Part shown: one piece after another, positions 28,049 through 44,900 of the stretch | How positions within the stretch are numbered: the stretch's first letter is position 1 | Layout: every line of letters starts with the position of its first letter | From: Lachnospiraceae bacterium | GTDB lineage: Bacteria > Bacillota > Clostridia > Lachnospirales > Lachnospiraceae | Length of the DNA stretch: 64,000 nucleotides | Reading direction: 5' to 3' | NCBI GenBank assembly: GCA_017520425.1 | Contig: JAFXFO010000024.1 | Location: forward strand, 1 to 64,000 | Notes under the pieces: model-generated | Told to the model about the DNA's origin: nothing | Databases searched by the model: none | Seen by the model: the letters and a program-made list of their open reading frames with translations, nothing else | Made by a program: the position numbers and the translations under genes

Positions 28049-29200
28049 ATGAACATCCTTTTTTATGATATGGGAAGCTATACCTACCAGGATATGCTCT
28101 ATTACCTGAAAGAAATGGGCCATACCTGCAAAACAGTCTATTATCACTTCCCGGATAAATTTGAAGATGACTTTTTCTGCAACCGACTGGAAACTCTTTT
28201 ACAACAGGCTCATTATGATGTTGTCATGAGCATCAACTTTTTCCCTTTGGTTGCCAAACTATGTTATGACCACCGGATTCCTTATATATCCTGGTGCTAT
28301 GACAGCCCTCTGGAAGAACGTTTGGAAGAATACTTCCACTATGAAACCAATCGCATCTTTCTCTTTGACCGCTTAGAGACCGAACGCTATCGTTCTGCCG
28401 GATTTTCGCAGATTTACCATTTACCTTTAGCTGTAAATACAAACCGCCTGGACAAGCTTCAATTCCCTTCCTCTTGGATTCAAAAACACAGCTGCGACAT
28501 TTCCTTCATCGGACATTTATACGAATCCCCTTTGGAGATATTGCTTTATTCTACAGACAACTATATCAAGGGATATGTGGAAGGTATCCTTCAGGCACAA
28601 TTACGGATTTATGGTTGCTACTTTATTGATGAACTGGTTACGGACGAGCTATTGGCTTCCATTAACAGTTCCTTCCAAAAAATCGGCCAAACAAACCTCA
28701 CACTGAACCATCGCGGGCTTTCCTTTGCTATCGCCTCGGAAATAACCCATTTGGAACGTTGCTTCCTGTTAGAACAAATGGGCGAACTGTTTCACACCCA
28801 TTTCTACACCTCCAAGCCCCACCAGCTCAGTGAACAAATCCACTCCATGGGACCGGTAAAATACCATGACGAAATGCCCTGTGTCTTCCGTCACAGCAAA
28901 CTGAATCTGAATCCCACACTGAAAAGTATCCAATCCGGTATCCCTCTCCGGGCACTGGATATCATGGGCTCTAAGGGTGTGCTATTGTCCAATTACCAAC
29001 CGGAGCTGGCTGAATATTTTGAAGATGGCACAGATGTAATCATGTACAGCAGTATGGAAGAAGCAGTGGATAAGTCCGATTTTTACTTAAGAAACGATGA
29101 ACTGAGAAAGCAGATTGCGATGAATGGCTACCGGAAGGTAAAAGAGATTTTTACGTATCCGGCTTGTATACAGAAAATATTAGAGAGTGTCGACTTATAA
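28049..29200 (+). CDS. DUF3880/CgeB-like glycosyltransferase
   Basis: Protein of 383 residues: DUF3880 half with YDVVMSINFFPLVAKLCYDH and YISWCYDSP, glycosyltransferase half with KLNLNPTLKSIQSGIPLRAL followed by DIMGSKGVLLSNYQPELAEY. Starts 15 bases after the GT2-like gene with AAAAGGAG upstream. Third gene of the cassette; its stop codon lies in the loop of a bidirectional terminator. Sister of 25437-26609 and of the C-terminal half of 42317-44176. The donor sugar is unknown. Confidence 0.75.
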   Translation: MNILFYDMGSYTYQDMLYYLKEMGHTCKTVYYHFPDKFEDDFFCNRLETLLQQAHYDVVMSINFFPLVAKLCYDHRIPYISWCYDSPLEERLEEYFHYETNRIFLFDRLETERYRSAGFSQIYHLPLAVNTNRLDKLQFPSSWIQKHSCDISFIGHLYESPLEILLYSTDNYIKGYVEGILQAQLRIYGCYFIDELVTDELLASINSSFQKIGQTNLTLNHRGLSFAIASEITHLERCFLLEQMGELFHTHFYTSKPHQLSEQIHSMGPVKYHDEMPCVFRHSKLNLNPTLKSIQSGIPLRALDIMGSKGVLLSNYQPELAEYFEDGTDVIMYSSMEEAVDKSDFYLRNDELRKQIAMNGYRKVKEIFTYPACIQKILESVDL

Positions 29201-29212
29201 TCGACACTCTCT
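29182..29212. terminator. Bidirectional terminator containing both stop codons
   Basis: Perfect 12-bp stem AGAGAGTGTCGA / TCGACACTCTCT with the 7-base loop CTTATAA. The plus-strand gene stops at 29198-29200 and the minus-strand gene at 29195-29197, both inside the loop. Confidence 0.85.
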
Positions 29213-29680
29213 AATTACTTCCTCTATGGCTGAAACTATACACGCTACATTCGACTCTGTATTTTGAGTTTCTTCTGCATTCCAACCGGTCAATTCCTTT
29301 AACCATGGAATCTCAGGGTAGGTCTTCCATAAATAGTCACAATACTCATTTCCCACGCAATAAAAGAACATGGAGATGCTAAGTTGCTTGGAAAGGTACT
29401 TTTCGTTGGGCAGATTTTCGTGGAGCAAAAAGTGAATGAATTTGCTATCTACCAAATTGTAGGACAGGCCATCTGTAAGGGTGCTGATGTCGAAGCCGGC
29501 TAGGTTGAAGGTTACGATTAAATCGGTAGGGTTACCTTTCAAATCCACTAATGCAAGTTCTCTACTGTCTTTGTAAGCACAGATCTCAATGGGACGTCTA
29601 TATTTCTTTTCCAGCAACTCTGCAACCGCCCTTATCAGCTTCTCATCATTACTCTTGTCCTTTAAATATATAAACTTCAT
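29195..29680 (-). CDS. Unrecognised small protein in the glycosylation operon
   Basis: 161 residues counted from MKFIYLKDKSNDEKLIRAVA at 29680, which has GAGGAAG in front; an ATG at 29713 lacks spacing for its AAGG. The middle reads LALVDLKGNPTDLIVTFNLA and the rest is rich in aromatic residues (FFYCVGNEYCDYLWKTYPEI). The alternating strand/helix pattern could be a Rossmann-like half, perhaps the N-terminal part of a GT-B enzyme, but no motif proves it. Last gene of the long minus-strand operon, converging on the plus-strand cassette. Confidence 0.55.
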   Translation of the reverse strand: MKFIYLKDKSNDEKLIRAVAELLEKKYRRPIEICAYKDSRELALVDLKGNPTDLIVTFNLAGFDISTLTDGLSYNLVDSKFIHFLLHENLPNEKYLSKQLSISMFFYCVGNEYCDYLWKTYPEIPWLKELTGWNAEETQNTESNVACIVSAIEEVIRECRL

Positions 29681-29715
29681 AATCTTCCTCTTTATATCAA
29701 AAGCATCGTTCATCC

Positions 29716-30780
29716 TTATGCAAGATTTGCAATAATCTGCGACTCATACACTTCATCAACAATATCTTCTACAATATATCCTTCCGGCCATTCATTATTG
29801 TATTTATTCTTTACTGCCGCCTTTATGCCATTATTCTTGAGTAGCCACTCGTAGGAAATATCCACATGCCCGATATCGATGGCATGATATCCCAGTTTTG
29901 CCAAATCATAGGCCAGTACACTGGCTGTAGGTCCAAGTGCTATCAAAATCGTTTTATTTAATGGAAGCTTCCTTGCCTCTGACAAAATATCTTCGTATTT
30001 ATCAAAAGCACTCTCTGCCGGACAGAGAATACGTTGGATAGACTTTGCATTATCAAACAAATCATTACCAACACCCATTCGGGTTTTATCTCCTTCTATG
30101 AAAACACAATCCCTTCCATCCCAGATACGCTTCTGCATCCTGACCATATCCCAGTTTACTGCTCTGGAAATACAAGCGTGGGCATACTTCTTATCCAGGC
30201 GTAATAATTCCATATGCTGTGCCCTTACCTCAGGGGTAATATAAGCCCGAATACCATCTGCATCGTTTTCTGTTCGATGGGACAAATCTCCATAAAAATT
30301 ATTTAAACCAATCAAGATATTTTCATTGTCAGAAGTCACCACTTCCCGAAGTCGCTCTGCCAATCTTTCATCCTTCTTTTGGAAACGCCACCTGGACACA
30401 CCGAACATGATGCCAAACTCTCCGTCTCCGAACCTAGCTATAGACTTTCGATTATTCACAATCTCATCTATGGTCTCTTCTTCCGTCATAATCTGCGGCA
30501 GCTTATACTTGTCCGCAAACCGCTCATCTAATATCTCATAGGGCAGATTCCTTAATCGATTATATAATGCATTATTATTTCTCGTATTCCCAAGTATTCT
30601 GGTATCCATCTGGGAAACCAGCTTAACCACCTCATTCACAGTCTGGCACAGATTGTTCTGCACATCATTCAATCGATTCACTTCATCCACAAGAGCATTA
30701 TTCATCTCAATCAATTCATTCAAACACTGTCTGTACTCCTGATTTTCCGCTTTTAACTGCTCTAAGATTTCATCACTCAT
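29716..30780 (-). CDS. DUF1792 (GT-D type) glycosyltransferase with N-terminal coiled coil
   Basis: 354 residues. Residues 1-55 are a coiled coil (EILEQLKAENQEYRQCLNEL). From about 110, SIARFGDGEFGIMFGVSRWR, TRMGVGNDLFDNAKSIQRIL, ALGPTASVLAYDLAKLGYHA and IDIGHVDISYEW are all landmarks of DUF1792, the GT-D glycosyltransferase fold first seen in streptococcal adhesin glycosylation. It is thus a protein- or glycan-directed glucosyl-type transferase; donor and acceptor are unknown. It sits between the methyltransferase and the unrecognised small gene, with 35-56 base gaps. Confidence 0.8.
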   Translation of the reverse strand: MSDEILEQLKAENQEYRQCLNELIEMNNALVDEVNRLNDVQNNLCQTVNEVVKLVSQMDTRILGNTRNNNALYNRLRNLPYEILDERFADKYKLPQIMTEEETIDEIVNNRKSIARFGDGEFGIMFGVSRWRFQKKDERLAERLREVVTSDNENILIGLNNFYGDLSHRTENDADGIRAYITPEVRAQHMELLRLDKKYAHACISRAVNWDMVRMQKRIWDGRDCVFIEGDKTRMGVGNDLFDNAKSIQRILCPAESAFDKYEDILSEARKLPLNKTILIALGPTASVLAYDLAKLGYHAIDIGHVDISYEWLLKNNGIKAAVKNKYNNEWPEGYIVEDIVDEVYESQIIANLA

Positions 30781-30836: not shown

Positions 30837-32537
30837 TTACTTCTCTAACAATCGGTTTAACGTGGTTATATGAGCAGTACCCTCCTTATCCCGGAAGCCA
30901 TTCCACTCCAGCATATGCAAAGAATCATTAACCACACCACTGAACAAATCCTCTAATTTTTGGAAGTCCTTCCAGCCTTTCAGCAAATCATATCTCTGAA
31001 CCATGGCTGAAATAGAAATAACACGGTTCACCTCTTCGTAGGAATTGTAAAACCGTAACAATGCACGATAAAAAACAAACCTTGCAGGCACATTCTCCAA
31101 AGTCCATTCCTGGTCAAACCAACAAATCTCACCATCATGCCAAAATGCATTCCTGGGAATCATATCTAAATAACCCGTCTTCAAAATCACACCAAACTTC
31201 TCCTCATTTGGTTCAATATCTAAATCAAAGGTGTACATTATATTCTCTTCCCAGGATGCTCTTTCAGAGGAGTGCAAAATCTGCGCATACAAGCTGTCAA
31301 ACAGAGCATATACTTTGTCCGTATCCCCTGTCCTATATGCTTCCAATAATACCTCTTCCAATGTTTGCAGCTGTGAAAACTTCGTATACAATGAAATCTC
31401 ACCGGCTTCACTGTTCCATACCTTCAATCCTCTATCCAGCAATGCCTGCTCATTTGCCAGTATCTGCTCCAAATGCGGTATACATTCCTGTGGATAAAGG
31501 GGAAATTTCTCTACCCTCTCCTGCTTCCAAAATCTGGTACCAATCTGATATTCCGGGTAACGCATACTGCTTAAAGTTGCAAAAGGTACTTCTCCCAGGT
31601 CACCCTCTACAGAGCACTCTACCAAAAAGGAGTTGGCAAAAAATTCAAACACACCATTCTGAATCACATCTGCATATATTTTACTCTCTTGGGCTATCAA
31701 TGTATGCATATCCGGCACATAGTAATACTGCATATCCATCATATTTGTTTGTTTAGGCAGATAATCCTGTGAGTATACTACTGACGGCATCTTGTAATCC
31801 GGCATAGGATAATAAAAGTAAGTCTTTCCAAAACCACTTGCCTTTACCAGTTCATCCAAAGCTGCCTTGGAAAAGGTTCTCACCTTCTTCTTAGATAAGG
31901 TATACTGGTTCATCCCCTCAAAGGGCAAACCCGTATGGTCTTCTCTGGCCCCACACCAATATTTCAAGCCATACTGATTTTCTATGGCAATCAATAGCTT
32001 CCCATCCGGCTTTAAGAGTTCCTTCACCTTCTTCAAAAAGTCCAAATAAGGATTCTTCGAATGAGTATAACTGCCTTGATATTCCAACACACCAATGAGG
32101 GTAATATAGTCAAATTTCTCCGCAAACTCAATATCATTCAGGTTTCCAACGATGATTTCCAAATTGTCCTTTTCCCTGCAACGCAGAAGAGTTCCTGTGG
32201 CTCTTCTCTTGGAAAGCTCCACTGCTGTTACATGAGCACACCTATCACAAAGCAAGCCTGTTATAGCACCCATTCCACAACCGATTTCCAGCACAGAGGC
32301 ATCCTCTTTGAAAGGATACCAATTTAGGATATTCTTTCGAATATGTGTCAGATGATAAAAAGTGGACCAGTTATAATTGTCAGCAATGGCCTGCACATAT
32401 TTCTCCGGCTCATTCTCTGCGATTATACGTACTACTGTATCCTCTATATTTCCTTCGGAATATGTATCCTTCCCTTGATACCATGTTAAGTTCATATATG
32501 GTTTGGGAGCTAAGTTTTTTATCCATTCACTGTACAT
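30837..32537 (-). CDS. SAM-dependent methyltransferase, large form
   Basis: 566 residues. A class I methyltransferase domain lies near residues 70-190, with SAM motif VLEIGCGMGAITGLLCDRCA, acidic motif VELSKRRA and FDYITLIGVLEYQG. Conserved LLIAIENQYGLKYWCGARED follows. The remaining 350 residues form a second region with TGYLDMIPRNAFWHDGEICW and FDQEWTLENVPA, a layout seen in glycan-cluster methyltransferases. It may methylate a sugar of the flagellar or surface glycan; the target is inferred from context. A weak own promoter is possible in the 76 bases before it. Confidence 0.75.
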   Translation of the reverse strand: MYSEWIKNLAPKPYMNLTWYQGKDTYSEGNIEDTVVRIIAENEPEKYVQAIADNYNWSTFYHLTHIRKNILNWYPFKEDASVLEIGCGMGAITGLLCDRCAHVTAVELSKRRATGTLLRCREKDNLEIIVGNLNDIEFAEKFDYITLIGVLEYQGSYTHSKNPYLDFLKKVKELLKPDGKLLIAIENQYGLKYWCGAREDHTGLPFEGMNQYTLSKKKVRTFSKAALDELVKASGFGKTYFYYPMPDYKMPSVVYSQDYLPKQTNMMDMQYYYVPDMHTLIAQESKIYADVIQNGVFEFFANSFLVECSVEGDLGEVPFATLSSMRYPEYQIGTRFWKQERVEKFPLYPQECIPHLEQILANEQALLDRGLKVWNSEAGEISLYTKFSQLQTLEEVLLEAYRTGDTDKVYALFDSLYAQILHSSERASWEENIMYTFDLDIEPNEEKFGVILKTGYLDMIPRNAFWHDGEICWFDQEWTLENVPARFVFYRALLRFYNSYEEVNRVISISAMVQRYDLLKGWKDFQKLEDLFSGVVNDSLHMLEWNGFRDKEGTAHITTLNRLLEK

Positions 32538-32613: not shown

Positions 32614-33678
32614 TCAACACTTACTCGTATATTCCTCAATTTGTTCCCGCATTATAAGTGCTATATCTCCTCCACTTATGTATGTCTTTACCCACTCTAC
32701 AGTTTTTTCTATAGCCTGTTCATAATTCCAAACCGGTCTCCATCCAAACTGCTGTTTCATTTTTGAACAATCTAACTTCAAGAAATTTGCTTCATGCGGT
32801 CCACCATCACCCTCGATTCTCCAGAATATCTCGCTTTGTGTTGAAGCATTCCACTTTCGACAAAAAGTGCCGACAATTTCTCCAGTTGTTACACAAGAAA
32901 CCTCGTCCGGTCCTATATTATAATTACCCGCCTTAACTATCTCTTCATACTGCTCTTTCGCAATTAATAAATACGCAAAAACAGGTTCCAAAACATGCTG
33001 ATAAGGTCTCACCGAGTGCGGATTACGCACAACAATATCCTTTCCAGATATCACAGCCCGCATACAATCAGGAATAATCCTATCAACTGCAAAGTCTCCA
33101 CCACCTATTACATTTCCCGCTCTGGCAGTAGAAACAGCAACTTTTCCATCTGCGAAAAAGGAATTCTTATAACTTTCCGTCACAAGCTCCGAGCATGACT
33201 TACTGTTAGAATAGGGCTCAAAACCATTTAATTCCTCGTTCTCACGATATCCCCACTCCCACTCACGATTTTTATAAACCTTGTCAGTAGTAACGTTCAA
33301 AAATGATTTTACAGACTTACAATTTCGCACACATTCCAGTACATTCACCGTTCCCATCACATTCACATCATAGGTATACACCGGATTCTTATAGGATTCT
33401 CGGACAATAGGCTGTGCAGCCATATGTATTACGATTTCAGGTTGATATTCATTAAACACACTCTGTAATTTATCCAAGTCACGTATATCACCAATGACGG
33501 AAGTAATATAACTATCAACACATGATAAATCATACAAACTGGGATTTGTCGGTGGTTCCATAGCATATCCTATTACCTCAGCCCCAAGCCTATGTAACAC
33601 ACTGCACATCCAAGCCCCTTTAAAACCCGTATGACCTGTTATAAGGACTTTTTTGCCTTTATAGAACTCTTTCAGCAT
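32614..33678 (-). CDS. rfbG: CDP-glucose 4,6-dehydratase
   Basis: 354 residues, NAD-dependent SDR enzyme that converts CDP-glucose to CDP-4-dehydro-6-deoxyglucose. The N-terminal GKKVLITGHTGFKGAWMCSV is diagnostic for RfbG; VTTDKVYKNREW and PYSNSKSCSELVTESYKNSF carry the Thr-Asp-Lys and YxxxK active-site residues, and ARAGNVIGGGDFAVDRIIPD is typical. Of the overlapping GTG and ATG at 33681 and 33678 the ATG is taken. It comes 6 bases after rfbH, second-step enzyme of the dideoxy sugar route here. Confidence 0.93.
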   Translation of the reverse strand: MLKEFYKGKKVLITGHTGFKGAWMCSVLHRLGAEVIGYAMEPPTNPSLYDLSCVDSYITSVIGDIRDLDKLQSVFNEYQPEIVIHMAAQPIVRESYKNPVYTYDVNVMGTVNVLECVRNCKSVKSFLNVTTDKVYKNREWEWGYRENEELNGFEPYSNSKSCSELVTESYKNSFFADGKVAVSTARAGNVIGGGDFAVDRIIPDCMRAVISGKDIVVRNPHSVRPYQHVLEPVFAYLLIAKEQYEEIVKAGNYNIGPDEVSCVTTGEIVGTFCRKWNASTQSEIFWRIEGDGGPHEANFLKLDCSKMKQQFGWRPVWNYEQAIEKTVEWVKTYISGGDIALIMREQIEEYTSKC

Positions 33679-33684
33679 CACTTA

Positions 33685-35040
33685 TTACATCCTTTCCAAT
33701 GCTTCAACAATCTTGTCAGCCATGTAATCCAACATAGCTTCTGTCATACCAGGGTATACACCAATCCAAAAGCTGTCCTGCATAATCTTATCGGTTGCAG
33801 TCAACTCTCCTACCACACGATAACCGGTTCCACTTCTCCTCATTTCATCAAAACAAGGTTGTTTAATCAGATTACCTGCAAAGAGCATACGTGTTTGTAC
33901 TCCGTTTTCTTCCAAATACTGTACTATAGCATTCTTGCTAACACCCTCTTTGCATGTAATTAAATAGCCAAACCAACTGGGTTGTGAATTTGGACATGCC
34001 TCCGGCAAAACAAGCCATTGTGTGGTATCCTTTAATTTTTCGGATAAATATGCAAAGTTTCTCTTTCTGGCTTCTACAAAACCCGGGAGCTTCTTTAACT
34101 GAGCACAACCAACTGCTGCCTGCATATCTGTTATCTTCAGATTATAACCAAAATGCGAATAGACATATTTGTGATCATAGCCAAGCGGAAGCTCACCATA
34201 CTGTCTATCAAACCTATGCCCACACATATTATCCATTCCGGAAGAACATACACAATCACGTCCCCAGTCACGGAAGGAACGAATAATTCTGTTCAATAAT
34301 GGATTATTCGTATATACTGCTCCACCCTCGCCCATCGTCATATGGTGTGGGGGATAAAAGCTAGATGTACCAATATCACCAATTGTACCGGTATACTTCC
34401 ATACACCTTCCATCTCATATTGGCTTCCCAATGCATCACAATTGTCTTCTACCAACCACAAGTTATGCTTATCACAAAATTGCTTTACAGCTTGCAAATC
34501 AAAAGGATTTCCCAAAGTATGTGCAATCATAACTGCCTTTGTCTTATCTGACCATGCCTCTTCCAACATTTCTACATTAATATTGTATTGTGGAATTGTA
34601 ACATCCACAAATACAGGAATCGCACCATATTGTAACATAGGAGTCACAGTGGTAGGAAAACCTGCTGCCACGGTAATTACTTCATCTCCCGGCTGTATAC
34701 GGCGTTCTCCCAGCAACGGAGAGGTTAATGCCATAAACGCCAACAGATTAGCGGAGGAACCCGAATTTACAACACTGCAGAAACGAACATTCAAATATGC
34801 TGCAAATTCCTTTTCAAACTGTTCTGTATAACGACCTGATGTAAGCCAAAACTCTAAGGCACTGTCAACCAGATTTACCATTTCATGTTCATCATATATA
34901 CGCCTGGCATAAGGTATGCGGTCACCTTTTTCATACTCTTTTTGTGTATGAAATTTGTTGCAGTATTCCTTTACTAACTTTAGTATTTCAGCTTTAACTT
35001 CTTCTTTTTGCATATCTTTATACACATCTTTTCCTTTCAC
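33685..35040 (-). CDS. rfbH: CDP-6-deoxy-4-hexulose-3-dehydrase (E1)
   Basis: 451 residues. PMP-dependent, [2Fe-2S] enzyme that removes the C3 hydroxyl of CDP-4-dehydro-6-deoxyglucose. It has the aminotransferase fold but His replaces the PLP lysine, SFYPPHHMTMGEGGAVYTNN near residue 230. The iron-sulfur cysteines are visible in RDCVCSSGMDNMCG. VEDNCDALGS is also conserved. The E3 reductase partner is not in the window, so another reductase must serve it. The GTG at 35040 overlaps the preceding stop; a GTG at 35025 with AAAGGA in front is an alternative start. Confidence 0.93.
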   Translation of the reverse strand: MKGKDVYKDMQKEEVKAEILKLVKEYCNKFHTQKEYEKGDRIPYARRIYDEHEMVNLVDSALEFWLTSGRYTEQFEKEFAAYLNVRFCSVVNSGSSANLLAFMALTSPLLGERRIQPGDEVITVAAGFPTTVTPMLQYGAIPVFVDVTIPQYNINVEMLEEAWSDKTKAVMIAHTLGNPFDLQAVKQFCDKHNLWLVEDNCDALGSQYEMEGVWKYTGTIGDIGTSSFYPPHHMTMGEGGAVYTNNPLLNRIIRSFRDWGRDCVCSSGMDNMCGHRFDRQYGELPLGYDHKYVYSHFGYNLKITDMQAAVGCAQLKKLPGFVEARKRNFAYLSEKLKDTTQWLVLPEACPNSQPSWFGYLITCKEGVSKNAIVQYLEENGVQTRMLFAGNLIKQPCFDEMRRSGTGYRVVGELTATDKIMQDSFWIGVYPGMTEAMLDYMADKIVEALERM

Positions 35041-35041
35041 A

Positions 35042-35962
35042 TTAATCTTGTACCTCTTCCATATAATGAAGCACTCTTTCTATACCTTCTTCAAAACCTA
35101 TCATTGGTTTCCATGATATATCAGAAATCAATTCTGTAATATCAGCTTGCAAATGCATGATTTGATTGTCCGAGTAGGGAATCGCGCCTAATGCAATCCC
35201 ACATGTAGGATTAACTCGCTCGTGAATCACATCAACATAACTTGAAATAGTTCTTACTTCTCCTCCACCTAACACATATGTTTTTCCCTTTTTTCCTCTC
35301 AAAGCCACTCCATAAATTGCCCGTGCTGCATCTTCACTATAAAGATAATCCCATAATTGCTCGCCTAGTGTCAACATAGGTTCTTCATTTTTCTTCAACT
35401 TACTAATCACAGTCATTATCATACTTTTTTCATAATCACAAGGTCCATACACACTCAGCACTCTTATCCAATTAAATTGTATTCCTCTCTGACTAGCATA
35501 CTCTTTCGCCATTAATCCTGCACAAAGTTTAGCCATACCATAGCCTGTTATCGGATTCGTAGGTGTATTCATATTAATCACACCATCCACTTTTCCATAC
35601 TCAGCCTGCGAACCTATACCAATAAACTTGCTGCACCCAAATCTAACTGCAACATCTATTGCTTCCAACACATATTGTACATTTTTATTTTGTATGTACA
35701 TATTATTTCGTGCATTACCTACTGTTCCTTCCCACGCAAGATGGAAAAAAAAATCATAGATTTTTCCCGTATCATTTTCAATATTTGCCAATTGCTCCAA
35801 CGAACATAATTTCTTTGTAACTAAAGGATGTTCAATGATATTTCGATTTCTAGTAGATTTTTCTCTACACAATACCAAAACTTCTACTCCGTTTGCAACC
35901 AGTTCCTTTATCAATGCTACTCCTATAGCACCTGTCGCACCTGTAATAATTGCTCGACTCAA
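35042..35962 (-). CDS. NAD(P)-dependent sugar reductase, YerF-like
   Basis: Extended SDR enzyme of 306 residues: ITGATGAIGVALIKEL at the N-terminus, Ser in FIGIGSQAEYG near residue 120 and the YGMAK active-site pair near 145. TTG start with AGGAGG 7 bases before. By position next to rfbH and the ThDP enzyme it should act on a CDP-3,6-dideoxy sugar: reduction of the acetyl side chain, as YerF does in Yersinia, is the most economical reading. A plain CDP-paratose/abequose synthase-type 4-reductase is the alternative. Confidence 0.7.
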   Translation of the reverse strand: MSRAIITGATGAIGVALIKELVANGVEVLVLCREKSTRNRNIIEHPLVTKKLCSLEQLANIENDTGKIYDFFFHLAWEGTVGNARNNMYIQNKNVQYVLEAIDVAVRFGCSKFIGIGSQAEYGKVDGVINMNTPTNPITGYGMAKLCAGLMAKEYASQRGIQFNWIRVLSVYGPCDYEKSMIMTVISKLKKNEEPMLTLGEQLWDYLYSEDAARAIYGVALRGKKGKTYVLGGGEVRTISSYVDVIHERVNPTCGIALGAIPYSDNQIMHLQADITELISDISWKPMIGFEEGIERVLHYMEEVQD

Positions 35963-35999
35963 ACAAATCCCTCCTAAATTAATTTACAGCTCATTCATG

Positions 36000-37823
36000 T
36001 CACTCAATTAATGGAATAAACATTTGAGCCTCTAGTTCTTCTTTTGGCAAAAAAGGAGCTAAGTCTTCTAATGGTGGACTTATCAATGTGCCATCTTGCA
36101 ATCTTTTTGTGCTACTCTTTGGTTCCCATACCTGCTCTATATCTGTAAAAATCTCACAAAAAACCATTCCATCTAATTTCAACACCGCATCAACAACTTC
36201 TTGCATTTCAGAATTATTGTGTGCACAATAATACGAAAATCCAAAAGCTTCCGCTATTTTTCGATAACAAGGAAATGATAAATCACCTGAATCTCGACCA
36301 ATTCCCACAAATTTTTTGTCAAATAAATTCGTTTGTGTTATACGTATAGAATGATATCCACCATTGTTAATCAAAAAAATTTTTATTGGCAACTTATTTG
36401 TTATAATCGTCTGAAGTTCCTGTAGATTCATCATGATGCTACCATCTCCCTCCAGACAAATAGTCTCCCTTCCTCCGCTACCAATACAAGTACCAATTGC
36501 CGCCGGCAATCCATACCCCATACTCGCAACAGCATTATTATTTGTAAAACGACTGCCTTCTTGTATAACATAAGCTTGACTTCCCACAACGCAACACGCG
36601 CCATTAGATACTGCTGTCAAACTATTCTTCGGAAGTTTACTACTCATATAACGAATAAATGCATAAACATTGGTCCTATCTCTACTTATATCTTCCTGAT
36701 GAGGCATTACTACAGGATACTCTTTTTTCCATCTTTGACAAGTTTCATTCCACACTGTTTTAACATCAATCTTTACCTCCGCCATCTTGTCAAGCTTACT
36801 TAAAAAATCCTTCGCATCTGCCCATATGGGCATCTCAACATGTATAGTAGGTTTTTTTAGTTCCGCCTTGTCTACATCAACCATAATAACTTCTGCTTCA
36901 CGTGCCCACGTTTTCCAATTATATCCCACTTGTCGAATAGAGATTCGGGTTCCTACAGCCAATATCAAATCTGCATTTTGAATCGCCCAATTCCCTGGAC
37001 GATCTCCCATATTCCCTGCACGTCCACAATATAATGTATTTTCATCTTCTATTAAGTCAATTGCATTCCAGTAAGTAACAATTGGAATATTAAGCTTTTT
37101 TATAACAGAACGAAAATGTTCATAAGCACCAGATAATCTTATTCCGTACCCCGCATAAAAAACTGGACGCTTCGCTTTTCTTATTTTTGTCAACACTTGT
37201 TGAATTATGTCTTCTTCTACTTCAGGTGGTACAAAATCCTCTTCAGTATTTGAATTATATCCTTCTAGTTCATCTGTTTCTATATAGCATCCCTGATAAT
37301 TAACTGGAATATCGATCCAAACTGGTCCTGGACGTCCAGTTGTCGCAAGATGCCAGCCCTTTTCCAGAGCATACCTTATCTGTTTTGCTTCTTCTATCAT
37401 CGTTGCATATTTTGTCATAGGTTCAACTGACTTAACAATATCATACTCTTGATCACCAAGAGAACGAAGTGATATTCCAGTATACGATAATGCATAGCGA
37501 GCAGTGGTATCGTATCTTACTTGTCCACTAATGATAAACATAGGAATCGAATCAAGCCAGCCACCCAAAACTCCTGTTAGAGCATTTGTTCCTCCTGGTC
37601 CTGTAGTCACACAAACTGCCGCTATCCTATTATCCAATCGTGCGTAAGCTTCTGCAGCTATCGCACATGCTTGTTCATGATGATTATAAGTTACTTTCAG
37701 CCCCCTATGATGTCCCAATGCATCATTTAAATGCATTGCACCTCCTCCCACAACAGAAAAAACATCCTTCACTCCATGAGCAACAAGAAAATCTGCTACA
37801 TAATCTGCCAATCTAATTTTCAC
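36000..37823 (-). CDS. Acetolactate-synthase-like ThDP enzyme, YerE-like
   Basis: 607 residues, three-domain thiamine diphosphate enzyme. N-terminal domain with DVFSVVGGGAMHLNDALGHH and the catalytic Glu in YNHHEQACAIAAEAYAR; C-terminal ThDP/Mg motif ICLEGDGSIMMNLQEL followed by NN about 25 residues on. The GTG start has GAGAGGA before it. True acetolactate synthase would be linked to ilv genes; here it lies between rfbH and rfbF genes. In Yersinia the homologous YerE moves an acetyl unit from pyruvate to C4 of CDP-3,6-dideoxy-4-keto-glucose. That reaction is inferred for this enzyme. Confidence 0.78.
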   Translation of the reverse strand: MKIRLADYVADFLVAHGVKDVFSVVGGGAMHLNDALGHHRGLKVTYNHHEQACAIAAEAYARLDNRIAAVCVTTGPGGTNALTGVLGGWLDSIPMFIISGQVRYDTTARYALSYTGISLRSLGDQEYDIVKSVEPMTKYATMIEEAKQIRYALEKGWHLATTGRPGPVWIDIPVNYQGCYIETDELEGYNSNTEEDFVPPEVEEDIIQQVLTKIRKAKRPVFYAGYGIRLSGAYEHFRSVIKKLNIPIVTYWNAIDLIEDENTLYCGRAGNMGDRPGNWAIQNADLILAVGTRISIRQVGYNWKTWAREAEVIMVDVDKAELKKPTIHVEMPIWADAKDFLSKLDKMAEVKIDVKTVWNETCQRWKKEYPVVMPHQEDISRDRTNVYAFIRYMSSKLPKNSLTAVSNGACCVVGSQAYVIQEGSRFTNNNAVASMGYGLPAAIGTCIGSGGRETICLEGDGSIMMNLQELQTIITNKLPIKIFLINNGGYHSIRITQTNLFDKKFVGIGRDSGDLSFPCYRKIAEAFGFSYYCAHNNSEMQEVVDAVLKLDGMVFCEIFTDIEQVWEPKSSTKRLQDGTLISPPLEDLAPFLPKEELEAQMFIPLIE

Positions 37824-37878
37824 AAATACAGTCCTCTCTTTTATTTATAATCACTTTACATACCATTTAATGCAAGAT

Positions 37879-38050
37879 CCCATATTTCCATGGGGCTTCT
37901 CCTGATGCCTATTGCTCCCCTAAAAAGTTCTATCACGCAATGTATCCATTGGGGTCACAAAACCATTATGTTTATAAGCTACCATTTCTCCCGCAACTGA
38001 TAACTTTTCATAAGGAGTAATTTCTAGCATCTTATCCGCTTCAAGATATT
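37879..38050 (-). pseudogene. Truncated copy of the rfbF 3' end
   Basis: About 170 bases match the last 57 codons of rfbF (39271-39443), ending abruptly at TCAAGATATT. Relative to rfbF one T is lost, so the frame breaks at RDRTF and stops, and a Trp codon has become TAG further on. No start or upstream part remains. The rest of the 323-base gap 37824-38146 is AT-rich and holds nothing else recognisable. Confidence 0.8.
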
Positions 38051-38146
38051 ATCTTCTTGATAAAATTTAACCTTGACTATTAAGTTGTATATTAACATTT
38101 TTTACAAAAGATTTGGTTCTTCTAGTTCCCTAAACCCTAACGCAGT

Positions 38147-39247
38147 TTAACGTTCTTCTATTGCATTCTCTTCTAGCAGCAACCAATAATACTCTCTTTG
38201 CCTCTGCCAAAGACTCTGCATATCCTTCCCACTAAAGCTCCAAAGAGAACTATACCTATGCACTGAATAAGACGTCTCAACTGGAATTTGCAGTGCTGGG
38301 TCAAAATAATCATTCGGATATATCAACGTCTCACCAATTTTTTGCATAGAACCATCCAACACCAATCCATGACTTACTAACATCTCCGTGGTAACTAATG
38401 GTGTGGTTCTATAGCAAAACTCACCACGTTCATTATAAAAAGCTATCCTTTCATAATTTTCTATATTTTCGGCAAACAAAGGATTATCCTTCCTACCCCC
38501 AAATCCATGACCGGTATTAACATAATTGGATACCTCAAAGCCCATAAAAGAATCTTGATATAGAATCTCATCAATACTTCTAACAATCTCCACATCCGTA
38601 TCCAAATAAATACCACCGTATTGATAAATCACATCCAATCTTGCAACATCCGAAACAAATGCCCATTTTTTTTGTTTGTACGCTTCTCTAGTGAAATCAA
38701 ACTTCGAATAATTGTAATTTGATTCATCCCATCTTATAATCTGGTAATCCGGACAAAACTTTTTCCAGCTTTGTATGCATTCCTGCACAAATAGTGGCAG
38801 TTCTCCCCCACCAAACCAACAGTAATGTATAATTTTAGGAATCATCATCTCCTGCTTTGCAGGTAAAAGTTCCTTACGCACTGTACTGGTATGCAAACGG
38901 AAGAGAATGTAAATAAAACATTCCACTTTATCCGAAATCTTGTAGCTCCTCAACTGCTCCACCATCTGATCCCAAAACCGACTTGTAATAAAGATAATCT
39001 TATTTTCAAAATATTCCTCTTTTAAACACTCTGGCGCGAGAATCCTAAATTCTTTAGTTCCAACTTTGAACATCGTTCCCCATTTCGATGCATCATTGTC
39101 CACAAAATAATCAATCGAATCCAAAAGCCCTTCCTCTTGAAATCCTTCACATATGATTTTTCCTGTAATTCCTGCTCCAAAACAAATAACCTTTTTCCCA
39201 TTATATATGCCCGGAAACTTTTCCGCAGTTGTATTAACTATTTTCAT
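38147..39247 (-). CDS. GT32-like glycosyltransferase with N-terminal Rossmann-like domain
   Basis: 366 residues. Residues 15-115 begin KKVICFGAGITGKIICEGFQ, a dinucleotide-binding-like fold with an IIFITSRFWDQM segment. From residue 135 a capsular/OCH1-type transferase follows: IPKIIHYCWFGGGELP, then FVSDVARLDVIYQYGGIYLD with the DTD motif immediately after (GGIYLDTDVEIV). It transfers a hexose-like sugar; donor unknown. It lies between intact rfbF and the truncated rfbF end, as if inserted with that duplication. AGGTGA precedes the ATG. Confidence 0.75.
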   Translation of the reverse strand: MKIVNTTAEKFPGIYNGKKVICFGAGITGKIICEGFQEEGLLDSIDYFVDNDASKWGTMFKVGTKEFRILAPECLKEEYFENKIIFITSRFWDQMVEQLRSYKISDKVECFIYILFRLHTSTVRKELLPAKQEMMIPKIIHYCWFGGGELPLFVQECIQSWKKFCPDYQIIRWDESNYNYSKFDFTREAYKQKKWAFVSDVARLDVIYQYGGIYLDTDVEIVRSIDEILYQDSFMGFEVSNYVNTGHGFGGRKDNPLFAENIENYERIAFYNERGEFCYRTTPLVTTEMLVSHGLVLDGSMQKIGETLIYPNDYFDPALQIPVETSYSVHRYSSLWSFSGKDMQSLWQRQREYYWLLLEENAIEER

Positions 39248-39267
39248 ACTATTGTCACCTAATCAAT

Positions 39268-40038
39268 TTACCATAATTTCCACGGAGCTTGTTCTGATGC
39301 CCATTGTTCCTCTAAAAAAGCTCTATCACGCACTGTATCCATTGGGGCCCAAAAACCATTATGCCTATAAGCAACCATTTCTCCTGCCAATGATAGCTTT
39401 TCATAAGGAGTAGTCTCTAGCATCTTATCCTCTTCAAGATATTGGAATATCTCCTTATTAAAAATTGCAAATCCTGCATTTACCCATGCCTGTTCTTCCT
39501 TATCTTTCTCTTTGAATGAACTCACCAAATTTTCTTCATCATCAATTTGAATCACACCCCATCTTCCCGTAGGCTTTGCAGCTGTAATTGTCGCAACTTT
39601 TCCGTGATTCTTATGGAATTTTACCAAATCAATTAAATTCACATCAGATACGCCATCTCCATAAGTAAGCATAAATGGTTCATCTTGAACATACTTTTTA
39701 ATCTTCAATATTCTCCCAGCTGTAGGTGTATGTAATCCTGTATTTACCAATGTAACCTTCCATGGTTCAGAGACATTTTCATGTACTACTACCGTATTAT
39801 CCTTCAAATCAATTGTAACATCTGATGCATGCATATAGTAATCCATAAAATATTCCTTTATCATATGTCCTTTATAACCGCAACATATAATAAAATCATT
39901 AAATCCATAATAACTATAAATTTTCATTATATGCCACAAAATTGGATATCCACCTATTTCAATCATCGGTTTTGGTCTTAGATGAGACTCCTCACTTATC
40001 CTAGTTCCCATTCCGCCTGCTAAAATTACAACTTTCAT
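39268..40038 (-). CDS. rfbF: Glucose-1-phosphate cytidylyltransferase
   Basis: 256 residues. Makes CDP-glucose from CTP and glucose 1-phosphate, the entry to CDP-dideoxy sugars. N-terminal MKVVILAGGMGTRISEESHL with RPKPMIEIGGYPILWHIMKI is the nucleotidyltransferase signature of RfbF; LTYGDGVSDVNL and KEKDKEEQAWVNAGFAIFNK are also typical. The ATG at 40038, 8 bases from GGGAG, is preferred to an upstream ATG. First enzyme of the route completed by rfbG, rfbH and the YerE/YerF-like genes downstream. Confidence 0.94.
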   Translation of the reverse strand: MKVVILAGGMGTRISEESHLRPKPMIEIGGYPILWHIMKIYSYYGFNDFIICCGYKGHMIKEYFMDYYMHASDVTIDLKDNTVVVHENVSEPWKVTLVNTGLHTPTAGRILKIKKYVQDEPFMLTYGDGVSDVNLIDLVKFHKNHGKVATITAAKPTGRWGVIQIDDEENLVSSFKEKDKEEQAWVNAGFAIFNKEIFQYLEEDKMLETTPYEKLSLAGEMVAYRHNGFWAPMDTVRDRAFLEEQWASEQAPWKLW

Positions 40039-40079
40039 CCTTCTGTCTCCCACATTCTTTTCTAAAACAAATCTACATT

Positions 40080-40646
40080 TTATTCATTATCAAATAAGCA
40101 CCAAGGTTCTTTTTTATTCAAAATCACAGCCATTGTTTCTTTACTGTTATTTAATTGTTTTTTATTAACAACAACATCTTCAATCTCCTGCCACTTCAAG
40201 TCCTTACAGGTAAACAAGCATCTAACATCAAGCGCATCTACTTCCTCTATTCTTGTAATTTTAGAACTATCATAATTCTCATTTCCTTTTTGAAGTCCCA
40301 ATTTATAACAATTTCCCACACTCAGATACTCTTCTTTATCATTATTCCGTGCTATTTTATATCCTAAGGCACCAAGTATTTCTATATATTTGTTCTGCTC
40401 AAAAATATCAACAACATCCAGCAATAACTCTTTATCCACCAAAAAAATATTTTCATCCAAATAAACCTTAATTATCGCATCCGTTTCTTTCATTCCTGCA
40501 TCATATGCTTGTCCTACTTTTCCCTGCTTGATAGTATACTCTATTTCGTATCCCTCAGGCACTGTTAGATATGATATATAATGTAAAACTTCTTGACACA
40601 AGAAATCATTTTCACCTCTAATGATAAAACATATTTTTTTATTCAC
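40080..40646 (-). CDS. Divergent GT2-like protein
   Basis: 188 residues from a GTG at 40646 that overlaps the end of the previous gene and has GGGGGGAG before it. KKICFIIRGENDFLCQEVLH and YLTVPEGYEIEYTI align with the start of the GT2-like domains at 27332 and 42317, and IIKVYLDENIFLVDKELLLD corresponds to the KVYLHQD segment. The HQD is changed to LDEN and the C-terminal FYDV region is missing, so it is probably a shortened, perhaps inactive, paralogue. Confidence 0.6.
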   Translation of the reverse strand: MNKKICFIIRGENDFLCQEVLHYISYLTVPEGYEIEYTIKQGKVGQAYDAGMKETDAIIKVYLDENIFLVDKELLLDVVDIFEQNKYIEILGALGYKIARNNDKEEYLSVGNCYKLGLQKGNENYDSSKITRIEEVDALDVRCLFTCKDLKWQEIEDVVVNKKQLNNSKETMAVILNKKEPWCLFDNE

Positions 40647-42021
40647 ACTTCTCCCCCCTATAATACATATCACTTAACAACTCCCAACATGCAATAACCT
40701 TTTCTCGATTTATACATTCATTATATATAATATACGATAAAGATTGCACAGACAACTGCTGTTCATAAAAATATGGAACAATATCATTCATAATTTCGTT
40801 AGCACAATCAAACTCCAGTCTTCTTAAAAGATATTTCAATGTTTGATACCTATCTACAACTTCCTTATAAGAATGAGTATTGTAAAATATTGTGTTTGAT
40901 GTTCCATTTTCAAGTTCTAATTTATAAATCTCAAAACACCTTTTCATTACAGCATACTCATACTTTCCAAGCACATCTTCTAACCAATAATTTGTATAGA
41001 ACATATGATATGCATCTGCTATTTCTTGATGATACAAATGCCCTATCCATTTTTCCAAAAGCATCTGTACTACTTTATGTTGTTGCCTCTGCACCAAGCA
41101 TTCAACACACTCTATTGAAATATCTGATACCTCATTCCACACATCTCTATATTTATCTACTGTCTCTTGTGTCAACAATTTATTTTCTCTTAACTGTATT
41201 AAATTATAGATACTACCAAATAATACAGGTTGCATAGTCTCTTCTTTTTTTACAACCGCCTTATATGGTTCGTAATATTCAGGCAACACTTCTACAGCTC
41301 TTGACCACTCTTCTATCCAAACCTCAAATATTCGTTTCACCCACATCGAATTACTACGTTCTGAAACATATCTTATAACCTCATCCTCTCTCAATACCAT
41401 TATTTTAAGAGCTTTAACTTTTAAAAGTTGTTCAAATAAAATATTAAAATGGTCAAACGAACCTGCTATCCCTGCATAGTACCTTTGAAAAAACTCTACT
41501 TTATCAAATTCTTTCAACATCGTATCCCATCTAATAATGGTAGTTTCTAAATTAGGTGTCATTTTTCCGTAATCCCGGAAAAAACTCAAAGCATCTGTAT
41601 ATACCTCTGTCCTTGGTTGTGGATTAGGATCCAACGGCCAATGTGCTACCGGCAAAAAAATTACATCATACCCTTCCAAACTAGCTTCATATATTTTTTT
41701 AATAGTACTTTCATCAAAATATGTTCTATCTTTTACGTTAAACATATATTCGTATTCTTTTTCAAGACCATATCCTGATAATACATCAAGCCCTTTTATA
41801 TGCGTATCAAAATTGGGACCATAATCAATATAAAATAAATTCTGATGCCCATCCTGAATATACTTATCTACAACTCTTCTAGTATCACTTGTTTCACTTG
41901 AATCATATACATATACATCAATTCCATACTTATTATACATTTCTAATGTTATTCCCAGCACCTCATCCATTGTATCAGGATGATTATATGTAGGCACACA
42001 AAATGCTATATTATGTTCCAT
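40639..42021 (-). CDS. Family 2-like glycosyltransferase with C-terminal helical region
   Basis: 460 residues from the ATG at 42021 (AAGGAG 9 bases upstream). N-terminal MEHNIAFCVPTYNHPDTMDE and DVYVYDSSETSDTRRVVDKY are GT2-like; the acidic metal-binding region may be FNVKDRTYFDE. HWPLDPNPQPRTEVYTDALS follows. From residue 300 the protein is helical and aromatic-rich (DAYHMFYTNYWLEDVLGKYE), comparable to helical partners elsewhere in the island. Function beyond sugar transfer is unknown. Confidence 0.68.
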   Translation of the reverse strand: MEHNIAFCVPTYNHPDTMDEVLGITLEMYNKYGIDVYVYDSSETSDTRRVVDKYIQDGHQNLFYIDYGPNFDTHIKGLDVLSGYGLEKEYEYMFNVKDRTYFDESTIKKIYEASLEGYDVIFLPVAHWPLDPNPQPRTEVYTDALSFFRDYGKMTPNLETTIIRWDTMLKEFDKVEFFQRYYAGIAGSFDHFNILFEQLLKVKALKIMVLREDEVIRYVSERSNSMWVKRIFEVWIEEWSRAVEVLPEYYEPYKAVVKKEETMQPVLFGSIYNLIQLRENKLLTQETVDKYRDVWNEVSDISIECVECLVQRQQHKVVQMLLEKWIGHLYHQEIADAYHMFYTNYWLEDVLGKYEYAVMKRCFEIYKLELENGTSNTIFYNTHSYKEVVDRYQTLKYLLRRLEFDCANEIMNDIVPYFYEQQLSVQSLSYIIYNECINREKVIACWELLSDMYYRGEKCE

Positions 42022-42061
42022 TATGATTATCTCCTTTTTAACACTCAATCAGCATTCAAAT

Positions 42062-42292
42062 TTATGCAATATATACAGCCAACATCTCCTTAACCTCATT
42101 TAGCATTCCCACCTTTGCAGATTCTTGCAACAATTCACTTACAACCAAATCAAACAAATTATACTGCATTAAGTATTTTTTGTAACGCGCAATAATATAA
42201 CACTTTGCTTCTACATGTTCCAAAACCGAGGTTGAAATGCTTCCATCTGTAAAAAATACATCTAATAACACTTCATCTACATCATTCAGCAA
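42062..42292 (-). other. Short open frame, probable gene remnant
   Basis: 76 codons open from a TTG without a ribosome binding site, product helical (SVLEHVEAKCYIIARYKKYL). An in-frame stop lies just upstream. It resembles the C-terminal helical parts of island proteins in composition, so it may be the tail of a lost gene. Coding status is doubtful. Confidence 0.3.
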
Positions 42293-42316
42293 TCAATGTA
42301 CCATCAAATTGCATGT

Positions 42317-44176
42317 TTAACAACTAAATATCTTTTTTAAAACACCTTCCAACCTATCTTCATAATTATGTTGTTTTCTAACCTTTTTATAACCATTGAT
42401 AGCAATTCTCACTCGTTCTTCTTCATGTTCAAGATAATAATTAACTTTTTCTTGTAATTCATCCAACGTATGATACACTTCTAAATCTTTACCAATCTCA
42501 AAATAATCCTCCAATTCAGACTGATAATTAGTCAAGCAGAAGCCACCAACAGCCATAATATCCCATACTCTTTGCGGTATACCACTTTCAATACTTCGTG
42601 ATGTAATATTAATATTGATCTTACTTAAATAGAATACCTTCGGCATCTCTGCCCAATAATCCACCCATGGGCGCACCTCGATATTATTGCTCAATGCTTT
42701 CGTTGCCACTTGATCAGCGTAAAGAACTACCCGATGTTTTTCTGCTAATTTATTTAAGATTCTAACTCTTTCCACCTCATTACATCTACGCACCAGCTTC
42801 ATGCTTTCACAATAATAACGTTTATCTATATCATAGATACCCCATACTTCCTGCTCAATCTTTGAACTAATATATTCTATCAACTGTTTAGATGCTTTAT
42901 CAAATAAGTTGATTTTTCCATCCCAAACACAGTTACAAGCATCTATTACCATATCTGCCTCGTTCTGCATTTCGACATTATTATCATCAAACAATTGCTC
43001 ATAGCCTCTATTATCATAAAGTCGACCTACAAAAGAAATATCTGCCTGATATTTCTTTTCATCCTTTTTCTTGATACTTACCGTACCAAATACATCTACC
43101 TCCGTTGCCAATGATACATGATATATATGTTTTATCCGCTTTAATGCGTTTAATCGTTCCAACTGTTTTTTATCAAACACACTTATATAGGTATACTCAT
43201 TCTGTGCTTCCTTGCGATAAAGTTCCAACAAAGGCGAATCATATACCCAAGCATAATATTTTACTTTGCTATTTTCACAAGCAATTGATACAGATGGTAC
43301 AAAATCATAGGTCATTACCAAATCATAATTACCATCCTCTAATTCTTCCTCGATCCGTTCCACCTCATGTGGATAATCTGCAAAAATATTCACATGATAA
43401 GTGCATATATCCACTGTATGCCCCATTTTCACTAAACTGTATGGTAGCCCCATCATCACTATCTGCTGGCTGTGCACAAACAATACACGCAAATATTCTT
43501 TTCCTTCATATATTTCCGGATACTCTTGAAGTAAGATTTGCCGGTTTTGTTCATAGTTCCAAAAAGCAGGTGCTCCACAGGCATGAATCACCCAGTTACT
43601 TTTCTGCCCCGGTACCACAATTTTGTACCCTGCACGTCGAAATTCCAAACACTGAGAAACATCATAAAAATCCCATCCCTTCAGAATATCTTCACGCCAA
43701 GGTATATCATATTGCGTCGCCATCAAAAAACCATCAATAGCTTCTACTTCTTTCATCCCATTCTTTATAAGAGTAATGCTATCCTCACCTTCTGCAATCC
43801 ACTCATCTAAATGATAGAAATTACCACACCTTTGTTCATGCCACATGATACCGTCTTTTGACAACTTCTCCGCACCCATGAAACCTATCATACCTATTTT
43901 TCTATCTTTTTTAAATATTTTAATTATTTTCTCAATAAATTTTTGTTCAACAATAAAGGTATCCTGGTGTAGGTATACCTTATACTTCGCATCTGTAGCA
44001 TTCATTCCCTCATTATATCCGGATGTCATGGATTTAGCCTCTGTAATAGTGATTATTTCTATCTCATAGCCTTCTGGTATCTCCAATAATTCCAAATACA
44101 TTATACATTCTTGCAATTGTCTCTCATCATTGGTACAAATGACAAAACATATCTTCTTATCATTCAGCTGCTTCAT
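42317..44176 (-). CDS. Fused GT2-like and DUF3880/CgeB-like glycosyltransferase
   Basis: 619 residues. Residues 1-225 are GT2-like (KKICFVICTNDERQLQECIM, TDAKYKVYLHQDTFIVEQ, IDGFLMATQYDIPW, GWDFYDVSQCLEFRRAGYKI). Residues 230-619 are a DUF3880-type GT-B enzyme (DLVMTYDFVPSVSIACENSK, YYAWVYDSPL, KININITSRSIESGIPQRVW). The two halves correspond one to one to the separate genes at 27332 and 28049. It overlaps the preceding helical gene by 17 bases, so translation is coupled. It probably adds two sugars or works as a processive pair on flagellin. Confidence 0.75.
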   Translation of the reverse strand: MKQLNDKKICFVICTNDERQLQECIMYLELLEIPEGYEIEIITITEAKSMTSGYNEGMNATDAKYKVYLHQDTFIVEQKFIEKIIKIFKKDRKIGMIGFMGAEKLSKDGIMWHEQRCGNFYHLDEWIAEGEDSITLIKNGMKEVEAIDGFLMATQYDIPWREDILKGWDFYDVSQCLEFRRAGYKIVVPGQKSNWVIHACGAPAFWNYEQNRQILLQEYPEIYEGKEYLRVLFVHSQQIVMMGLPYSLVKMGHTVDICTYHVNIFADYPHEVERIEEELEDGNYDLVMTYDFVPSVSIACENSKVKYYAWVYDSPLLELYRKEAQNEYTYISVFDKKQLERLNALKRIKHIYHVSLATEVDVFGTVSIKKKDEKKYQADISFVGRLYDNRGYEQLFDDNNVEMQNEADMVIDACNCVWDGKINLFDKASKQLIEYISSKIEQEVWGIYDIDKRYYCESMKLVRRCNEVERVRILNKLAEKHRVVLYADQVATKALSNNIEVRPWVDYWAEMPKVFYLSKININITSRSIESGIPQRVWDIMAVGGFCLTNYQSELEDYFEIGKDLEVYHTLDELQEKVNYYLEHEEERVRIAINGYKKVRKQHNYEDRLEGVLKKIFSC

Positions 44177-44834: not shown

Positions 44835-44850
44835 ATATCCCTCTATGAAA

Positions 44851-44878
44851 AAGAGGGATGACCTAAGTCATCCCTCTT
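44851..44878 (-). terminator. Flagellin terminator
   Basis: Perfect 12-bp stem AAGAGGGATGAC / GTCATCCCTCTT, loop of four, then TTTTTCATAG on the minus strand (partly within the stem end). It is 22 bases past the flagellin stop and 16 before the glycosyltransferase operon. Confidence 0.85.
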
Positions 44879-44900
44879 CTATTGGTAGCTTACTTAAATG

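Follow-up and report, generated by a model that had tools for sequence, protein, structure and literature searches.

A likely flagellin glycosylation island with a predicted yersiniose-type sugar cassette in a Lachnospiraceae bacterium

Why do genes resembling those for yersiniose, a branched sugar of Gram-negative O antigens, lie beside flagellin in a Gram-positive bacterium? The stretch considered here, called the window, comprises 64,000 nucleotides from a Lachnospiraceae bacterium (positions 1 to 64,000 of contig JAFXFO010000024.1, assembly GCA_017520425.1). A first-pass annotation of this DNA had described rfbF, rfbG and rfbH, an enzyme dependent on thiamine diphosphate (ThDP) and a short-chain dehydrogenase/reductase (SDR), and had predicted that together they make a branched 3,6-dideoxy sugar for flagellin or another surface glycan. 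On balance, we favour reading the locus as a flagellin glycosylation island that took up a branched-sugar cassette making a sugar like yersiniose linked to cytidine diphosphate (CDP).

The five genes are present at the positions given by the annotation (all coordinates are those of the window, on the minus strand unless stated otherwise). The products of rfbF (glucose-1-phosphate cytidylyltransferase, 39268..40053; TIGR02623, 383.6 bits, cut-off 300.25), rfbG (CDP-glucose 4,6-dehydratase, 32614..33681; TIGR02622, 441.6 bits, cut-off 278.45) and rfbH (CDP-4-keto-6-deoxyglucose-3-dehydrase or E1, 33685..35040; NF011936, 736.8 bits, cut-off 423) all exceed the curated NCBIfam cut-offs. RfbH matches the E1 structure 3bcx with 536 bits and keeps Cys201, Cys263, Cys265 and Cys273 in the spacing C201-x61-C263-x1-C265-x7-C273, as well as a His in the motif PHH, which we take to be the four-cysteine cluster and the catalytic histidine motif of E1. 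The genes for the ThDP enzyme (36000..37823), the SDR (35042..35962), RfbH and RfbG look like one unit, since only 37 bp separate the first two and 1–3 bp the others. In a search of 117 related genomes, rfbH is on the same contig as the ThDP gene, at most 3 kb away, in all ten genomes with a strong ThDP match, the present one included.

The best solved relative of the 607-residue ThDP enzyme is PDB entry 8rph (412.9 bits, 37% identity across 591 positions), while the best acetohydroxyacid synthase (AHAS) scores 233.2 bits. Entry 8rph has CDG where GDG is canonical, and the part of a review available to us calls CDG unique to JanthE, a YerE-like enzyme (PMC12247030); 8rph is therefore taken to be JanthE. 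The window enzyme itself has GDG, and both the catalytic Glu and the GDG...NN ThDP motif are present. In a maximum-likelihood tree of 24 sequences, with 8rph as its one characterised YerE-like reference, the window enzyme groups with 18 relatives and JanthE at an ultrafast bootstrap (UFBoot) value of 98. Outside this group fall E. coli AHAS I, PDB entry 5ahk and two further AHAS-like proteins of the same genome, which are 30% identical to the ThDP enzyme. The cut-offs of the AHAS models are not reached, the best score being 318.7 bits against 538.35 for TIGR00118 (among 25 of 54 families listed). At the column of the AHAS Trp/Gln, presumably a specificity residue, Thr is found in JanthE and in 88 of the 88 relatives counted (one partial frame, L099, was left out of the residue counts and of later trees). 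The tree, the bit scores and this Thr speak for the earlier assignment to the YerE-like enzymes and against an anabolic acetolactate synthase; a clustering with the anabolic enzymes, which the annotation had named as the outcome that would speak against its view, does not appear in the tree.

The candidate YerF-type ketoreductase is an extended SDR (PF01370) with intact GATGAIG and YGMAK motifs. Among the 117 genomes, an SDR match of at least 238 bits, a threshold set after looking at the data, is seen in all ten genomes with a strong ThDP match and in none of the 107 others. The ThDP threshold of 1e-150 in this search missed divergent copies, so that the ten are strong matches only and the 107 are genomes without a strong match. 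SDR and ThDP gene are found together on a contig in nine of these ten genomes; the exception is G100, whose assembly is fragmented. A tree was built from 72 SDRs, its rows mostly collected via the ThDP gene and hence favouring the ThDP-linked label. Here the window SDR falls in a group of 19 rows that are all ThDP-linked (Shimodaira–Hasegawa-like approximate likelihood-ratio test, SH-aLRT, 84; not one of the starred values). Seven of the ten SDRs from loci labelled as having no ThDP gene form a separate, starred group; the other three sit among the ThDP-linked rows, and two of these three loci contain shorter ThDP-like stretches. As few label changes were obtained in none of 500 trials with shuffled labels. 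ThDP-like frames of 432, 370 and 275 bits are present on the stretches fetched from genomes G080, G063 and G117, respectively; the G080 row carries the ThDP-linked label and the G063 and G117 rows (L128 and L130) the label 'noYerE'. This association across genomes supports the SDR as a YerF-type partner of the ThDP enzyme. As for the earlier match to YerF, the name is a functional guess.

With these genes, the predicted pathway is well supported; its product would be a 3,6-dideoxy sugar, linked to CDP, that bears at C4 an acetyl branch reduced to hydroxyethyl. Going by family membership and conserved residues, RfbF would activate glucose-1-phosphate with cytidine triphosphate, RfbG would produce CDP-4-keto-6-deoxyglucose, and RfbH, together with an unlinked electron donor, would remove the 3-hydroxyl. 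Its kinship with YerE suggests that the ThDP enzyme would decarboxylate pyruvate and place the acetyl unit onto the C4 ketone, leaving a tertiary alcohol. The SDR, in view of its intact motifs and its partnership with the ThDP gene, would then convert the acetyl branch into hydroxyethyl and give the CDP-yersiniose-like sugar. Within the cytoplasm, flagellin would finally receive this branched sugar, along with others, from the transferases of the island.

The flagellar side of the locus begins on the minus strand with fliD and fliS, both named by eye, and a gene for a 157-residue protein. Flagellin (FliC, 276 residues, 44901..45731; PF00669/PF00700) follows and is succeeded by a tetratricopeptide repeat (TPR) protein (224 residues, 44160..44834; PF14559), a candidate flagellin-binding factor, and by a bifunctional glycosyltransferase with GT2-like and CgeB-like parts (619 residues, 42317..44176; PF13712, PF12996, PF13524), the two genes overlapping by 17 bp. 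Then come orf469 (40639..42048), a probable GT2-type transferase that has no Pfam match of its own and a weak homologue in locus L102 that matches PF00535 at cut-off, a small GT2-like protein (40080..40673; PF13712), rfbF and a DXD glycosyltransferase (Gly_transf_sug/Caps_synth, 38147..39247; PF04488, PF05704). After the unit from the ThDP enzyme through SDR and rfbH to rfbG, the order ends with a methyltransferase-domain protein (566 residues, 30837..32537; PF13489), a GT-D-fold glycosyltransferase (29716..30780; PF08759, 238 bits) and a 172-residue protein without a Pfam match (29195..29713), which ends at a 17-pair hairpin (29215-29179). The sugar and transferase genes are therefore situated directly downstream of fliD–fliS–fliC, inside the flagellar locus. 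Three more transferase genes lie beyond the hairpin: a CgeB/DUF3880-type glycosyltransferase convergent with the island (28049..29200, plus strand; PF13524, PF12996), a GT2-like transferase (27332..28033, plus strand; PF13712) and a second CgeB/DUF3880-type glycosyltransferase (25437..26609; PF13524, PF12996).

The last three transferases, the TPR protein, the 619-residue transferase, the methyltransferase-domain protein and the GT-D-fold transferase were compared between 13 flagellin loci (12 of 57 genus genomes with a flagellin match, taken from the best matches, plus G003, a metagenome-assembled genome, MAG, of Acetatifactor muris) and 80 ThDP loci fetched with up to 10 kb on each side. At least one of these seven proteins is matched with 100 bits or more at ten of the 13 flagellin loci versus three of the 80 ThDP loci. 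A Fisher value for this contrast is descriptive: the choice of proteins followed a look at the data, three of the seven have domains in common, and near relatives supplied the flagellin loci. Because kinship confounds the comparison, a control within the genus is fairer: not one of the seven reaches 50 bits at the four same-genus ThDP loci that are not beside flagellin (L106, L108, L109 and L110), nor at L111, from another family. The 619-residue transferase is matched at nine flagellin loci and each CgeB/DUF3880-type transferase at eight, with no match at the ThDP loci for any of them; the former shares domains with the latter two, so that one relative can match all three. Matches of the GT2-like transferase occur at two flagellin loci and no ThDP locus, those of the GT-D-fold transferase at two (G070 and G051) and one, and those of the methyltransferase-domain protein at one (G058) and two, respectively. 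The TPR protein is matched at one of the 13 flagellin loci (100 bits).

The closest flagellin (87%) belongs to G082, where the TPR gene and the 619-residue transferase follow flagellin (L118) and a DegT aminotransferase, WbqC and others stand behind them. Judged from its genes, the delivery end is kept there and the sugar module differs. In two further genomes of the genus, G083 and G087, a run of transferases and other genes, some 23 kb in all, separates flagellin from the rfbFGH–ThDP–SDR cassette, which has the same orientation as fliD–fliS–fliC. They count as one origin, as they are near-identical (SDR branch lengths below 0.04). These comparisons point to a likely flagellin island. Of the flagellar or surface glycan proposed at first, the flagellar setting stands through the transferases common to flagellin loci and the G083 and G087 islands; transcription led by flagellin does not. 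A second, divergent flagellin is located on another contig (G000:C17:5780-6190, L002), and a FliS-like gene is seen behind it by eye.

A hairpin resembling an intrinsic terminator lies between flagellin and the island. The 66-bp gap 3' of flagellin contains a 14-pair hairpin (folded stretch 44846..44886) with five T at the end of its 3' side and a folding energy of -22.7 kcal/mol (z = -5.57), and none of 200 shuffled sequences is as stable. Hairpins follow 14 of 18 flagellin copies from the 13 related loci according to a loose script; one of the four copies that the script missed, in G082, also has a hairpin by eye. Furthermore, the block of island genes is broken by two gaps, of 268 bp (42049..42316) and 323 bp (37824..38146), both holding decayed gene ends. 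The likely operon starting at flagellin, as first suggested, is therefore rejected as unsupported, given this strong hairpin of the terminator type. Transcription of the island may start at promoters of its own, separately from that of flagellin, or depend on read-through of the terminator. Upstream of flagellin, a sigma-28-like promoter candidate (45859..45884, TAAG-N15-CCGATAT) shows one mismatch to what we take to be the sigma-28 consensus. Such sites number four in the window versus 1.52 expected, and nine of 100 shuffles reach four, which makes the site weak evidence by itself. An Rfam scan of positions 24000-46500 gave no match.

Several observations weigh against a flagellin island that makes a sugar with a two-carbon branch, the hairpin directly after flagellin being one. 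RfbH (E1) needs a reductase partner (E3). A dedicated E3-type electron-transfer reductase was not found in scans of the genome, which is 90.38% complete, and of the loci. The genes assigned by the first-pass annotation to CDP-4-keto-3,6-dideoxyglucose are there, but rfbF, rfbG and rfbH by themselves would not yield it. The sole PF00970 protein in the genome has, by eye, a C-terminal ferredoxin-like motif and in this respect presumably differs from E3. A cysteine-pattern scan of the open frames in loci L001-L083 and L102-L121 gave two matches, each located towards the C-terminus and unlike E3. RfbH may thus depend on an unlinked donor, and another electron donor such as ferredoxin could fill that role, or else the reductase gene is missing from the assembly.

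The chemistry can also be read in three other ways. An Arg at an AHAS position is kept in the window enzyme and in 86 of the 88 relatives and is Pro in JanthE; it thus does not separate the groups. This Arg, the Pfam ThDP domains and the AHAS model matches below cut-off would fit an ordinary acetolactate synthase, an identity that we reject as highly improbable given the tree, the scores and the Thr at the Trp position, and given that the genome already has its two other AHAS-like genes. The SDR might instead be a C4-reductase that leads to a simple 3,6-dideoxyhexose of the paratose or abequose type while the ThDP enzyme does something else. A precedent is the flagellar island of C. butyricum, for which a recent study predicted paratose synthesis by RfbF, G, H and S (PMC13317340), and the three SDRs mentioned above that sit among the ThDP-linked rows agree with it, even if two of their loci have ThDP-like stretches. 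The position of the SDR right behind the ThDP gene, its tracking of that gene across genomes and the separate group of seven SDRs make this quite improbable. A closer competitor keeps the cassette and the flagellar target and proposes a branch of more than two carbons, from a hydroxylated 2-oxo acid instead of pyruvate. Some YerE-like enzymes use longer donors, and ErwE prefers 4-hydroxy-2-oxo acids, according to the part of the review at hand (PMC12247030). At 23 of the 80 loci, with loci cut at contig ends scored as having none, an HMGL-family protein is encoded no more than 8 kb from the ThDP gene and mostly immediately after it. The curated models nearest to this protein, those of 4-hydroxy-2-oxovalerate aldolases, give 66.4 and 89.1 bits, below the cut-off of 229. 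The branch need not be two carbons, because relatives often have such an aldolase-like gene near the ThDP gene. In the islands of G083 (L103:6128-8878) and G087 (L104), the ThDP gene is accompanied by genes for an HMGL/aldolase-like protein and for a relative of AroB that exceeds the TIGR04425 cut-off, which hints at a branch of greater complexity, and the two ThDP sequences nearest to that of the window are HMGL-linked. On a ThDP tree of 88 rows the HMGL state changes 17 times by parsimony, at least eight of the changes being forced by starred branches. The label is nevertheless more clustered than in shuffles (mean 21.9 changes, with two of 500 as low), so that the enzymes may differ with the label. 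No HMGL/aldolase-like gene was found in the window, and the genome holds only a homologue of 27% identity over 284 of 525 residues. A pyruvate donor fits because the window lacks this gene. Pyruvate is also the simplest donor and a two-carbon branch is probable, although the enzyme sequence does not settle the donor; we regard the longer branch as rather unlikely.

A further question is where the sugar goes. The cassette could feed a capsule or wall polysaccharide, its position beside flagellin being coincidental. Elsewhere it is not seen near flagellin: none of the 80 ThDP loci has flagellin on the fetched stretch. In a search of 49 genomes, from 50 of the 80 loci with L059 left out, 19 have both genes, and the ThDP and flagellin matches share a contig once, about 188 kb apart in G033. 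As many contigs are short, closeness is not always excluded; the flagellar setting of the cassette is a minority one all the same. A flippase-like gene in the same-genus neighbourhood L109 adds to this, as do four PF02397 priming transferases of the genome itself, all outside the window and one on the same contig (C18:182685). The earlier argument that a Gram-positive has no O antigen is not a strong one: many Bacillota carry the cassette with no flagellin on the stretch fetched, and priming transferases are available elsewhere in the genome. Against a polysaccharide, no priming transferase was found in the window, a Pfam scan of 17 island proteins showed no flippase family, and the window transferases are of types found at flagellin loci. 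A polysaccharide destination thus has a small but real chance, and flagellin remains the favoured target.

YerE-like relatives of the ThDP enzyme number at least 571 in one scan, and their genes are widely distributed among Bacillota genomes, at sites remote from flagellin. Thirty of the 80 ThDP loci, some of them on short contigs, show no rfbH at a distance of up to 8 kb. Two loci have less typical origins: L083 comes from a Spirochaetaceae MAG and L046 from a Synergistales MAG. A tblastn search of the ThDP protein against plasmids gave no match at 1e-80.

The gaps in the island hold traces of earlier genes. Just upstream of the ThDP gene, the 323-bp gap contains the remains of another rfbF copy, whose decayed 3' end has 83% nucleotide identity to the intact rfbF over 196 bases; 42 residues are 81% identical before the reading frame is broken. 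In the 268-bp gap, residues 5-76 of a 76-residue stretch are 29% identical to the C-terminus of a protein at the flagellin locus of G051 (L119:13167-14006; E = 3.9e-9 in a small custom set). The GC content is 32-38% at 34-46 kb and 40-46% in most of the window; a segment at 26-28 kb is also low (37%). Decayed gene ends and low GC content fit an exchange of cassettes. Tentatively, flagellins of gut-type Bacillota might bear C4-branched 3,6-dideoxy sugars, with a branch made species-specific by swaps of donor-supply genes around a conserved YerE-like enzyme. The supply genes would be the aldolase-like HMGL protein with its partners, or none, and the decayed rfbF upstream of the ThDP gene would be the scar of such an exchange.

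Other features of the window lie away from the island. A UDP-galactopyranose mutase (PF03275) is encoded at 20675-21796, and galactofuranose may therefore also be made. A plus-strand FliD-like (flagellar cap) protein is seen by eye at 19328-20623, away from the flagellar block. Two frames at 23309-24400 and 24581-25045 share a near-identical C-terminal stretch and, by eye, look like Rpn-type transposase proteins.

The yersiniose pathway of Gram-negative O antigens resembles the present cassette in its clustering of RfbF, G and H with a YerE-like ThDP enzyme and a reductase candidate. Here the host belongs to the Bacillota, the locus is flagellar and no E3 reductase was found, and the likeness of the ThDP enzyme is judged via 8rph. 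JanthE is the closest structural relative of the window enzyme and falls in the same clade; the window enzyme differs in its canonical GDG and its predicted flagellar role. The erwiniose pathway likewise has a YerE-like enzyme, ErwE, acting on the same CDP-ketosugar according to the review (PMC12247030), but with longer hydroxylated donors; an aldolase-like gene that might provide such donors is absent from the window and present in relatives. For delivery, the accessible text on FlmG of Caulobacter describes a TPR domain that binds flagellin and a GT-B-type domain (PMC7591256), which makes FlmG a model for the TPR protein and the transferase with a CgeB-like domain beside flagellin in the window. 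The TPR protein may, by this analogy, hold flagellin for the overlapping bifunctional transferase; the window differs in having two overlapping genes and a different sugar.

Clostridial flagellar islands with CDP-3,6-dideoxyhexose genes and transferases inside the flagellar locus have already been published as predictions. For such islands, a 2026 study predicts CDP-paratose genes (C. butyricum DSM 10702) or 3,6-dideoxyhexoses (C. sporogenes and C. thermosuccinogenes), and it proposes GT2 proteins bearing TPR repeats as possible flagellin transferases (PMC13317340). There the predicted product is paratose or an unspecified 3,6-dideoxyhexose, unlike the branched sugar proposed here, and the words acetolactate and thiamine are absent from the main text. 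The sections seen of other papers place CDP-4-keto-6-deoxyglucose genes in enterobacterial islands (PMC4875605) and C4-branched octoses in Gram-negative polysaccharides and antibiotics (PMC4753412). A mention of thiamine pyrophosphate in an Aeromonas flagellin paper refers, in the passage available, to a thiamine-pyrophosphokinase-like domain of Maf and not to a ThDP enzyme. Among the open-licence papers listed by our searches, none describes a branched-chain sugar on flagellin, in agreement with the first-pass annotation; we likewise found no report of a ThDP branching step in clostridial flagellar islands and nothing on flagellin glycosylation in Lachnospiraceae. The YerE-type branching cassette in such an island thus appears to be new.

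If the proposal is correct, C4-branched octoses would extend to a protein glycan of a gut-type Gram-positive bacterium, carried by a structure that the host encounters. Products could then also be assigned more easily to the many uncharacterised YerE-like relatives in Bacillota, and these enzymes may provide new carboligases for making tertiary alcohols.

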